Below are positions 18,165 through 40,648 of a stretch of 50,231 nt of DNA, in pieces. The notes below the pieces were generated by a model. The model ran no database searches. It was not told the origin of the DNA and was given only the letters and a program-made list of their open reading frames with translations. Position numbers and translations under genes: made by a program. Source of the stretch: a bacterium (lineage in GTDB: Bacteria; Patescibacteriota; Andersenbacteria; UBA10190); assembly GCA_030698495.1 (NCBI GenBank), contig JAUYKA010000023.1, positions 1-50,231 of the forward strand, given 5' to 3'. Positions within the stretch are counted from its first letter, which is position 1, and each line of letters starts with the position of its first letter.

Positions 18165-18440
18165 AATTTTTAATTTTTAGTCAATTCTACAATTACATAA
18201 TGTTTTAATTGTCATTAAGGAATTTAAACATTAATAAATTGATTAAAAATTACTGTGTCGGCCATAGCCTTGTGCGACGGCTGAAAAATTTATAATTAAA
18301 AATTAAGTAATCACTGACTACCTATTTCCTGTTGCATACTACCTACTACACAACTTTGTCCCTTACTACTCTTGTCCCCCATAGTCCCCGCTAAGAGCGG
18401 GGCGACGGGGGATACTACTTGCTACTAAGTTGCTACTAAA
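18165..18440. repeat. adjacent A-type and C-type repeat blocks each enclosing an ATA/GAC-loop hairpin
   Basis: tcggccatagccttgtgcgacggctga in AT-rich arms; cccccatagtccccgctaagagcggggcgacggggg in tactact arms. Confidence 0.6.
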
Positions 18441-18481: not shown

Positions 18482-19531
18482 ATGCGCACCATAGATGATT
18501 TATTGCGCGAAGCCAAAGACGCCGGCGCTTCCGATATTCACGTCGCCGAACAGCGTCCACCCTTCTTCCGGATCGACGGCAAACTTCAGCCCGTCAGCGA
18601 CGAGCCTCTTTCCGACGACGAAATAAAAACAATAATAAAAACTCTGTTGCGTGACGATGATCGCCTGCACGCGCAGATGGAGAAATACATGCAATCTGAT
18701 TTTTCTTATGCTCTGGCCGACGGTACTCGTTTTCGCGTCAACGTCTTTTTACATCTGGGTTATTACTCCGCCGCTCTGCGCTTGATTCCCAAAGAGATCA
18801 GAACCATCGAACAACTGCACATGCCGCCGCAGGTCACGCAGTTTGCCGACCTCAAGCAAGGCTTTGTTCTTTTAGCCGGTCCCGCCGGCCACGGCAAATC
18901 CACTACCATGGCCGCCCTTATCGACTATATTAACCAACAACGACGTGAGCATATCATTACCGTTGAAGATCCGATTGAATATCAATTTACCGACATTCAA
19001 TCGATTATTGATCAGCGCGAAATCGGCCGCGATGCCTCTTCTTTCGCCAGCGCTATTCGCTCCACCCTGCGGCAGGATCCGAACGTTATTATGGTCGGCG
19101 AATTGCGCGATCTGGAAAGCATGAGCACCGCTATTACCGTCGCCGAAACCGGCCACTTGGTTTTCGCTACCTTGCACACCAATGACGCCGCCCAAACCGT
19201 CGAACGTCTGATCGATTCCTTCCCGCCCGAACAACAGCACCAGGTTCGCTCCCAACTTTCCGCCACTATCTCCGGCGTCATCTCCCAGCGCTTACTGCCC
19301 TGGCAGGAAGGCGGACGCATTCCGGCTGTGGAAATTATGATCGCCACCACCGCTATCAAAAACGTCATTCGGGAAGGCAATATTCATCAAATCATGGGCA
19401 TCATTCAAACCAGCGCCGATGTCGGCATGCAAACACTGGACGCCAGCCTCCAAGCCCTGGTTGATTCCAATGCCGTCCGCCTGCAAGATGCCCGCCCGTA
19501 TTTCTCGTCGGTTAAAACGCTTAATCGGTAG
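18482..19531 (+). CDS. pilT: twitching motility/retraction ATPase PilT
   Basis: AGPAGHGKSTTMAALIDYINQQRREHIITVEDPIEYQF; ATLHTNDAAQTVERLIDSFP. Confidence 0.95.
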   Translation: MRTIDDLLREAKDAGASDIHVAEQRPPFFRIDGKLQPVSDEPLSDDEIKTIIKTLLRDDDRLHAQMEKYMQSDFSYALADGTRFRVNVFLHLGYYSAALRLIPKEIRTIEQLHMPPQVTQFADLKQGFVLLAGPAGHGKSTTMAALIDYINQQRREHIITVEDPIEYQFTDIQSIIDQREIGRDASSFASAIRSTLRQDPNVIMVGELRDLESMSTAITVAETGHLVFATLHTNDAAQTVERLIDSFPPEQQHQVRSQLSATISGVISQRLLPWQEGGRIPAVEIMIATTAIKNVIREGNIHQIMGIIQTSADVGMQTLDASLQALVDSNAVRLQDARPYFSSVKTLNR

Positions 19532-19615
19532 TAGCAAGTAGAACGTAGTAAGTAGTAAGGATTTATACGTCGTCGTTCCCTTGCTTCTTACTACTTGCTA
19601 CTTACTACTAAATAT
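19530..19615. repeat. C-type heptamer palindrome without ORF
   Basis: tagtagcaagtagaacgtagtaagtagtaagg - atttatacgtcgtcgttccc - ttgcttcttactacttgctacttactacta. Confidence 0.75.
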
Positions 19616-20875: not shown

Positions 20876-21375
20876 CTATAAGGTAGTAAGTAGCATGCAG
20901 CAAGTAGCAAGCACGATTAAGTCTTTTACAAGTTTGAAAGCATGGCAGGAGAGTCATAGGCTTGTCCTTAACATTTACAAGACCACCAAACAATTTCCTT
21001 CAGAAGAATTATTTGGCCTTACCAGTCAAATAAGACGAGCCGCTGTATCTATTACATCAAATATTGCAGAAGGCTTTAATCGACGCTCACCCAAAGACAA
21101 AATCAGATTTTATGATATGGCACAAGCCTCTGCTGCCGAATTGCAGAATCAACTGTTAATCGCTCGTGATGTTGGCTATATTTCCGACGCTGATTTTTTA
21201 AGTCTTGCCAATAACTCTGTGACAGCACATAAGATTATCGGCGGACTAATTCGTAGCATCAAATAGTATTTCGGGTCGTCCCTTACTACATACTGCTTAC
21301 TGCTTGCTACTACCTTCTGCATATTGCCTACTACATACTACCTACTACAGCTACTTGCTACTACCTACTACCTAA
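20876..21375. mobile_element. candidate ORF-bearing C-type heptamer palindrome
   Basis: ggtagtaagtagcatgcagcaagtagcaag on the left, cttactacatactgcttactgcttgctactacc... in inverted orientation on the right of the four-helix-bundle ORF. Confidence 0.5.
20895..21266 (+). CDS. four-helix-bundle protein (S23/IVP/Avd-like family)
   Basis: FTSLKAWQESHRLVLNIYKTTKQFPSEELFGLTSQIRRAAVSITSNIAEGFNRRSPKDKIRFYDMAQASAAELQNQLLIARDVGYI, the diagnostic family pattern; ATG at 20895 lies inside the heptamer array. Confidence 0.9.
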   Translation: MQQVASTIKSFTSLKAWQESHRLVLNIYKTTKQFPSEELFGLTSQIRRAAVSITSNIAEGFNRRSPKDKIRFYDMAQASAAELQNQLLIARDVGYISDADFLSLANNSVTAHKIIGGLIRSIK

Positions 21376-22799: not shown

Positions 22800-23615
22800 A
22801 TGACTACCCTCATCTTTCCCATACTTATCTTTGTTTTCGGCACCCTCATCGGCAGTTTCTTAAACGTCGTCATCCTCCGCTATTTCTCCGGTCAGGACAT
22901 TACCACCTCCCGTTCCGCCTGCCCCAAATGCGGCAACACCCTACGCTGGTGGGAATTGGTTCCCATCCTATCGTTTACCTTCCTGCGTGGCCGCTGCGCT
23001 CGATGCGCGTCTGAAATTTCTGTCCAATACCCGCTAGTCGAACTCGCTACCGGTTTGCTTTTTCTCACCCTTGCCACGCCTTTATCGTCAACTCCTGTCG
23101 GCATTATCTCTACTCTATTACTATTTACCATTACGTCTTTAGTAATAATTCTATTCGTCATCGATCTTAAAGCCATGATTCTCCCCGATATTTTTATAAT
23201 CTTATTCACAGTAACTATATTTTTTTATATAATGTTCAGCCCATCTAAATCCCTTACTGCATGCTACTTACTACTTACTACTTGTCGCCAACCATTCAAT
23301 AGTATGTATGGCATGTTTATCGGCACGGGCTTTCTGGTACTACTGTACTTAGTTACTCGCGGCCGCGGCATTGGCTTCGGCGACGTCAAGCTAATGCTGC
23401 CGCTGGGCCTGCTATTTGGACTGTGGGGGACAATCAGCCTGCTGCTGATATCCTTCTGGGCCGGCGGCCTTGTCGGACTCTGGCTCCTGCTCGCTAAAAA
23501 GGCCACCGTTAAAACCGCCATCCCCTTCGGCCCCTTTCTCCTTGGCGCTGCCGTCCTGCTCCTCCTCTTTCCCTCCCTTCCTCTCCACCTCTTAACACTC
23601 CTTGGGTTCCGGTAG
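22800..23615 (+). CDS. pilD: prepilin peptidase (A24 family)
   Basis: GSFLNVVILRYFSG; CPKCGNTLRWWELVPILSFTFLRGRCARC; GRGIGFGDVKLMLPLGLLFG. Confidence 0.95.
   Translation: MTTLIFPILIFVFGTLIGSFLNVVILRYFSGQDITTSRSACPKCGNTLRWWELVPILSFTFLRGRCARCASEISVQYPLVELATGLLFLTLATPLSSTPVGIISTLLLFTITSLVIILFVIDLKAMILPDIFIILFTVTIFFYIMFSPSKSLTACYLLLTTCRQPFNSMYGMFIGTGFLVLLYLVTRGRGIGFGDVKLMLPLGLLFGLWGTISLLLISFWAGGLVGLWLLLAKKATVKTAIPFGPFLLGAAVLLLLFPSLPLHLLTLLGFR
23253..23287. repeat. five C-type heptamers in frame within pilD
   Basis: cttactg catgcta cttacta cttacta cttgtcg; encodes LTACYLLLTTC. Confidence 0.8.
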
Positions 23616-35143: not shown

Positions 35144-36122
35144 AGAATTGGCAGCGGTTTCCGATGCCGCCGCTCTTGAAGCTTGGCGCGTCAAATATTT
35201 GGGCCGCAAAGGCGCCGTTCCTCTTTTACTGCGCGGCGTTAAAGATTTATCGGCCGAGGAGAAAAAAGTCGTCGGCCAAACCGGTAATCAGCTCCGTCAA
35301 GCGTTAGAGCAAAAATATTCACAATTAAAACGACACATCAGCACAGCACAGAACAGTGCCGATAATATGCCTACTGCCTACTACCTACTGCCTGCTACCG
35401 GTAACGGCCATCTCCACCCTCTTACCTTAACCATCCGCCGTATCCAAAAAATATTATCGGACATGGGTTTTGTTATTACCGAAGGCCCACTGGTTGAAGA
35501 CCCCGGTTTCAATTTCGACCAGCTTAATATTCCCCTGGAACACCCCACCCGGTCCGAAACAGACACTTTTTATTTAACTGCCGGTCAAGTACTGCGCACC
35601 CACACCTCACCCGTCCAACTGCGTGCCGTTTTGCAAAACCGGCTCCAGCCCCCTTTTCGCATCTTCTCGCCCGGCCGGGTTTTTCGCGCCGAACGTACTG
35701 ACGCTACCCATGAAGCCACCTTCTACCAGTTTGAGGGGCTAATGGTCGGCACCGATGTTTCCTTAGCCGACCTAAAGAGAGACGTTGAACAATTCTATTC
35801 CAAATTTTTTGATCAAGCTGTTCAAAGCCGCCTGCGCACCAGTTTCTTTCCCTTTGTCGAGCCGGGACTGGAAGTGGACATCAGCTGTGTTTTTTGCGGC
35901 GGCAAAGGCTGTCGCGTTTGCAAACAGACCGGCTGGATAGAAATGATGGGTGCCGGTATGGTGCATCCCAATGTTCTGCGCAACATGAACATTGATCCCG
36001 CCAAATACCAAGGCTACGCTTTCGGCGGTGCCGTGGATCGCTTGGCCATGCTGCGCTATGGCGTTAGTAATATTCGCTCGTTCTGGTCCGGCAACTTCAA
36101 CTTCTTGAAACAATTTTCCTAA
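35091..36122 (+). CDS. pheS: phenylalanyl-tRNA synthetase alpha subunit
   Basis: HPLTLTIRRIQKILSDMGFVITEGPLVEDPGFNFDQLNIPLEHPTRSETDTFYL; FAFGGAVDRLAMLRYGVSNIR-type C-terminus. Confidence 0.97.
   Translation: MTDLTPEKLSQLQTRALKELAAVSDAAALEAWRVKYLGRKGAVPLLLRGVKDLSAEEKKVVGQTGNQLRQALEQKYSQLKRHISTAQNSADNMPTAYYLLPATGNGHLHPLTLTIRRIQKILSDMGFVITEGPLVEDPGFNFDQLNIPLEHPTRSETDTFYLTAGQVLRTHTSPVQLRAVLQNRLQPPFRIFSPGRVFRAERTDATHEATFYQFEGLMVGTDVSLADLKRDVEQFYSKFFDQAVQSRLRTSFFPFVEPGLEVDISCVFCGGKGCRVCKQTGWIEMMGAGMVHPNVLRNMNIDPAKYQGYAFGGAVDRLAMLRYGVSNIRSFWSGNFNFLKQFS
35367..35401. repeat. five C-type heptamers in frame within pheS
   Basis: atgccta ctgccta ctaccta ctgcctg ctaccgg; encodes MPTAYYLLPATG. Confidence 0.85.
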
Positions 36123-40582: not shown

Positions 40583-40648
40583 AATCCCCTTAGCGGTATT
40601 AAATAAGCTGGCTACTTGCTGCTCACTACCAGCCCACCTGCTAATTCA

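Follow-up and report, generated by a model that had tools for sequence, protein, structure and literature searches.

The window, a stretch of 50,231 nucleotides, corresponds to contig C11 in a draft genome of 1.16 Mb (G000), for which the relatives found belong to other genera. Between its pilC and pilin genes lies an element with no Rfam match at the locus (L001), in which arrays of tandem heptamers in opposite orientation enclose a single gene for a four-helix-bundle (4HB) protein. The parts of this element and two related features of the window are as follows.

19526 to 19615, no strand assigned: ORF-less palindromic element of the same heptamer dialect, between the GspE/PilT-type ATPase gene and pilC
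20876 to 20911, forward strand: 5′ arm, the heptamer array TATAAGG TAGTAAG TAGCATG CAGCAAG TAGCAAG, straight after the pilC stop codon
20895 to 21266, forward strand: 4HB ORF of 123 aa, PF05635 23S_rRNA_IVP / TIGR02436
21267 to 21281, forward strand: inner 3′ segment TATTTCGGGTCGTCC, between the 4HB ORF and the 3′ arm
21282 to 21375, reverse strand: 3′ arm, inverted heptamer arrays at 21282-21309 and 21320-21347 and another to about 21375
23253 to 23287, reverse strand: single heptamer array, in frame, in the prepilin-peptidase (pilD) coding sequence, giving about 15 extra residues relative to PF01478, within the match

In profile searches, the ORF matches PF05635 (E 5.4e-38; 129.9 bits, above the curated cut-off of 33.8) and TIGR02436 (E 5.6e-37; 126.3 bits, above the cut-off of 24), and its ATG falls within the 5′ array. 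An earlier note, made from the letters of the sequence, had described an IVP/Avd-like 4HB ORF enclosed by inverted heptamer arrays, an array right after the pilC stop with the ATG inside it, and the inner segment TATTTCGGGTCGTCC. All of these are present as described, and the two profiles confirm the protein family. The arms of the window gene pair moderately only (about 75% over 23-25 nt), most homologues having clearer ones, and the inverted-repeat score of the element (16) only just passes the 99th percentile of in-locus controls (15.8).

The same note had placed an ORF-less version with the same arms and a similar core about 1.3 kb upstream. The palindrome at 19526-19615 bears this out: it uses the dialect of the ORF-bearing element and has the inner motif GTCGTyCCTT in common with it. 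Similarly, the GTCGTCCCTT motif of the inner 3′ segment is found again at the inner edge of ORF-less elements, many of which have one arm only. Further single heptamer arrays occur in the window at 18328-18348, 35370-35397 and 40608-40628 and have no obvious partner. Across the whole genome the heptamers are far above chance, with 93 matches to TAGTAAGTAGTAAG at up to two mismatches (7 for the reversed control) and 31 exact matches to TAGYAAGYAGYAAG (0 for the control). Folding of the upstream palindrome beats 200/200 shuffles, both as RNA (z -5.4) and as DNA (z -3.95). Such strong hairpins are a point in favor of an alternative reading, of the arrays as repeats with a regulatory or structural role in the host (terminators, RNA-stability hairpins or nucleoid sites), with the 4HB protein as a host factor that binds them and nothing that moves.

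Other element families in this genome are harder to reconcile with host repeats. Its PF05635 paralogues carry differing arrays, built from the 7-nt words TAGTAAG and AAAAACG and from the 9-nt word GTGAATACA. The 9-nt arrays, inverted like the others, surround the PF05635 gene of contig C9 (L062, about 2330-2990). The AAAAACG-type family comprises three ORF-bearing copies, namely the C36 gene and two at the contig ends of C19/C20/C22. Two of these copies are nearly identical, agreeing over 141 bp without a mismatch at one end and in 210/211 bp at the other, and their flanks diverge beyond TTTCAATTAT...ATAATTGAAA; both are located where contigs end, in an assembly of draft quality. The ends of the ORF-bearing copies recur in about 18 ORF-less copies and in one derivative with an internal deletion (L160). 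Dispersed copies with common ends and different flanks, the mark of transposable elements, are therefore found in this genome and argue against stationary host repeats. ORF-less copies with matching arms exist for two families in the one genome, in agreement with the MITE-like derivatives that had been proposed to lie beside ORF-bearing elements. Between the C36 gene and the C19/C22 genes dN is 0.06 with dS 1.8, and 0.05 with dS 0.73; dN of 0.05-0.06 against dS of 0.7-1.8 indicates that the protein is under purifying selection, which would also suit a host binder.

The association of gene and arrays is general in Patescibacteria. For the 80 closest homologues, which come from many lineages and include the window, the 150 bp on either side of the gene were scored against each other and compared with in-locus controls. 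In 76/80 homologue sets the inverted flanks score above the 99th percentile of these controls, and the check for arms at both ends of related genes, suggested in the earlier note, thus finds inverted arms to be the rule. Arrays with a 7-nt period occur in at least one flank of 76/80 homologues and in both flanks of 54/80, and start or stop codons frequently fall within them. The heptamer words vary among homologues (TAGTAAG, GAATTAT, GTATTAA, GATTTAW, GTATTTG, GAGTCAA and others). Where both arms are readable they usually consist of the same word; dialects differ widely among species, a diversity that speaks against host repeats. The coding sequence for one of the six peptides used in the homologue search (MQQVASTI) lies in the window's array itself, and since the arms of homologues are mostly of other dialects, the resulting selection effect should be small. 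In 33 further PF05635 loci, weak family members included, inverted repeats exceed the 95th percentile of controls in 26, and the best period is 7 in 21. Arrays of period 8 are seen in G023 (L263/L264) and G043 (L269/L270).

Arrays also follow the gene from genome to genome. The word GTAGYAW has 9, 8, 8, 3 and 79 matches in genomes with an element of that dialect against a median of 1 elsewhere (Mann-Whitney p 9e-4), and GATTTAH has 19, 63, 5 and 17 against a median of 2 (p 3e-3). In 40-kb samples that avoid the known 4HB genes, arrays of 7-nt period are present in 6/10 genomes that have a 4HB gene and in 0/8 that lack one; array number tracks 4HB gene count (Spearman rho 0.84, p 1.4e-5). Alike proteins tend to have alike arms (Mantel r -0.37, p 5e-4), a correlation that relatedness by itself could produce. 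These observations support the 4HB gene and its arms as one unit in diverse bacteria, with the dialect matched within each element and to the ORF-less copies.

One genus is represented by three complete genomes, which have 5 (G017), 8 (G039) and 0 (G094) PF05635 matches. Two sites that hold an element in G017 and G039 are empty in G094, where they span about 70-100 bp and 50-90 bp instead of 430-650 bp, although insertion and loss cannot be told apart with three genomes. The earlier note had offered mobility as an inference and looked to occupied and empty sites in related genomes as its check. This polymorphism is now found among the three congeners and, together with the two families of ORF-less copies, supports that inference, so that movement of the elements is strongly suggested. 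At the orthologous occupied sites of G017 and G039 (L177/L178 and L179/L180) the dialects are different, each matched within its own element. Occupancy of the same sites suggests long vertical residence, and simple transposition does not explain the concerted drift of both arms to a new dialect. No target-site duplication is evident at the element ends compared, and a defined insertion chemistry was likewise not found there. In G039 (L179, about 1800-1873) the gene that follows an element seems to take its start codon from the downstream arm. G017 and G039 additionally carry a heptamer-armed element in helix 6 of their 16S rRNA (L182/L184); the suggested link to rRNA intervening sequences is hence matched by the same architecture within an rRNA gene of two relatives. 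That some sites are common to different species is consistent with host repeats. Insertions in 16S rRNA and in the pilD coding sequence speak against them, and with the differing paralogue arrays, the near-identical copies in different flanks and the varied dialects they leave that explanation unlikely.

The position in helix 6 also fits a second alternative, in which the elements are RNA-level intervening sequences, with selection acting on an RNA stem excised by RNase III and spread via RNA or ordinary recombination. A precedent is the 23S rRNA element of Coxiella (PMC4990558), in which a protein of this family is again accompanied by inverted repeats and which RNase III excises. However, the elements are mostly intergenic, several of them between genes on the opposite strand, and arm mismatches comprise 67 G-U and 68 C-A pairs. 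With this absence of G-U bias, selection on the RNA stem was rejected and the RNA-level alternative becomes quite improbable; the part of the earlier idea that concerned binding to RNA hairpins is weakened in the same way, and recognition of DNA is the simpler guess.

A known enzyme that moves the elements in trans, either a Y1/RAYT-type transposase or a reverse transcriptase (RT) partnered by an Avd-like protein, with the 4HB gene as an accessory, is very improbable. In its favor, the window's genome has two RT genes (L214 on C31 and L217 on C36) as well as three Y1_Tnp matches, and Avd, a distant relative, assists the RT of diversity-generating retroelements. Against it, searches found no RVT_1 in G017, G039, G070, G059, G060 or G077 and no Y1_Tnp in G033, G071 or G059, element-bearing genomes of which several are drafts, and G094 has Y1_Tnp while having no 4HB genes and no arrays in 40 kb. 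Dependence on RT and dependence on Y1/RAYT were both rejected on this inconsistency between enzyme presence and 4HB gene presence, and known enzymes thus fail to explain the pattern.

The arrangement at the locus is therefore probably a minimal mobile element, in which a single PF05635 4HB gene lies between two arrays of a short word (usually 7 nt) in inverted orientation, accompanied by ORF-less derivatives with the same arms. That no catalytic domain is recognised in the 4HB protein counts against such an element. Its mechanism can be pictured as follows. The 4HB protein may bind the arrays, probably as DNA, and would bring the ends of the element together; among related proteins of solved structure, 2GSC and 2RLD each contain five chains, which fits a pentamer. 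Host replication, repair or recombination would then copy the element into other intergenic sites, and ORF-less copies would move in trans. Where an element sits in an rRNA gene or an operon, the arm hairpin may allow trimming by RNase III, as in the Coxiella 23S rRNA element.

Related arrangements occur outside Patescibacteria. On plasmids of cyanobacteria and Riemerella, PF05635 genes often lie between the genes of operons, as in cmr2/cmr3, cas6/cas4 and nrdB/nrdA. Inverted flanks exceed the 99th percentile in 11/14 plasmid loci, with the control taken from Patescibacteria, and 7-nt arrays flank at least one side in 10/14, with words such as AGTCAGG, GGGGAGT and AAAAGGG. In one Nostoc plasmid the GGGAGTAG word is confined to the 4HB gene and to two further positions no more than 5 kb from it. 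A Pseudanabaena plasmid (L222) has long heptamer arrays on both sides of a 4HB gene between cas6 and cas4, both in the same orientation. By their published description, the STRR of cyanobacteria resemble these plasmid arrays in being tandem heptamers, hairpin-capable and intergenic. They are usually 7 bp long, their function is given as unknown (PMC2670836), and a title cited in PMC4748335 reports them within the RNase P RNA gene; unlike the elements here, they have no tie to a 4HB gene in the STRR literature found.

A wider proposition can be put forward only tentatively, namely that Patescibacteria heptamers, cyanobacterial STRR and ORF-bearing rRNA intervening sequences are traces of one widespread transposable family whose only protein is the 4HB protein, which moves with no known transposase, recombinase or RT of its own, and in which protein and word co-evolve. 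To our knowledge, no function has been assigned to the PF05635 family, and the heptamer repeats of cyanobacteria have likewise lacked an explanation. The tie between protein and array in several phyla gives both the family and these repeats a testable role. The PF05635 protein would be the factor by which a minimal mobile element recognises its arrays; each protein would be expected to favor its own dialect, and a genome without the gene to have no arrays. It would also explain a route by which intervening sequences enter rRNA genes, and a mobile element without a recombinase of its own would join the known kinds.

Several known systems share parts of this organization. Phage carriage was rejected (0 matches in 50,697 phage records), and PADLOC matched no known defence system. 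The closest counterpart is the rRNA intervening sequence, such as the 428-nt element in helix 45 of Coxiella burnetii 23S rRNA, in which inverted repeats accompany an S23p ORF and RNase III removes the insert (PMC4990558). Ralph and McClelland (1993), as cited there, proposed that the ORF serves mobility. The elements described here agree with it in protein family, in suspected mobility, roughly in size, and in having an ORF enclosed by inverted repeats, which are moderate in the window copy. They differ in lying mostly outside rRNA, as the window copy does and the two 16S rRNA elements do not, in having arms of tandem 7-nt words rather than a simple stem, and in their many ORF-less copies.

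Another parallel is the REP/REPIN and RAYT system (PMC3116915), in which one protein gene within inverted repeats is likewise accompanied by many matching non-coding palindromes. There the protein is a Y1/HUH enzyme; in the window ORF a Pfam scan found PF05635 and a sub-threshold bAvd match and no Y1/HUH domain, and tandem-array arms and fast-changing dialects are further differences. MITEs and their autonomous partners are similar in that short ORF-less derivatives, including the internal-deletion copy, keep the ends of ORF-bearing copies, whereas neither a transposase, DDE or other, nor a target-site duplication is seen here. The Avd/bAvd proteins of diversity-generating retroelements are distant sequence relatives of the window protein, which scores 19.6 bits against the Avd profile NF033474, below its cut-off of 80, and the window's ORF list has no RT gene next to the 4HB ORF. 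A search of literature outside paywalls found no publication tying a PF05635 protein to heptamer arrays. Beside these systems, the free-standing intergenic form, the arms made of dialect arrays, the ORF-less derivatives and the dependence of arrays on the gene appear to be new.
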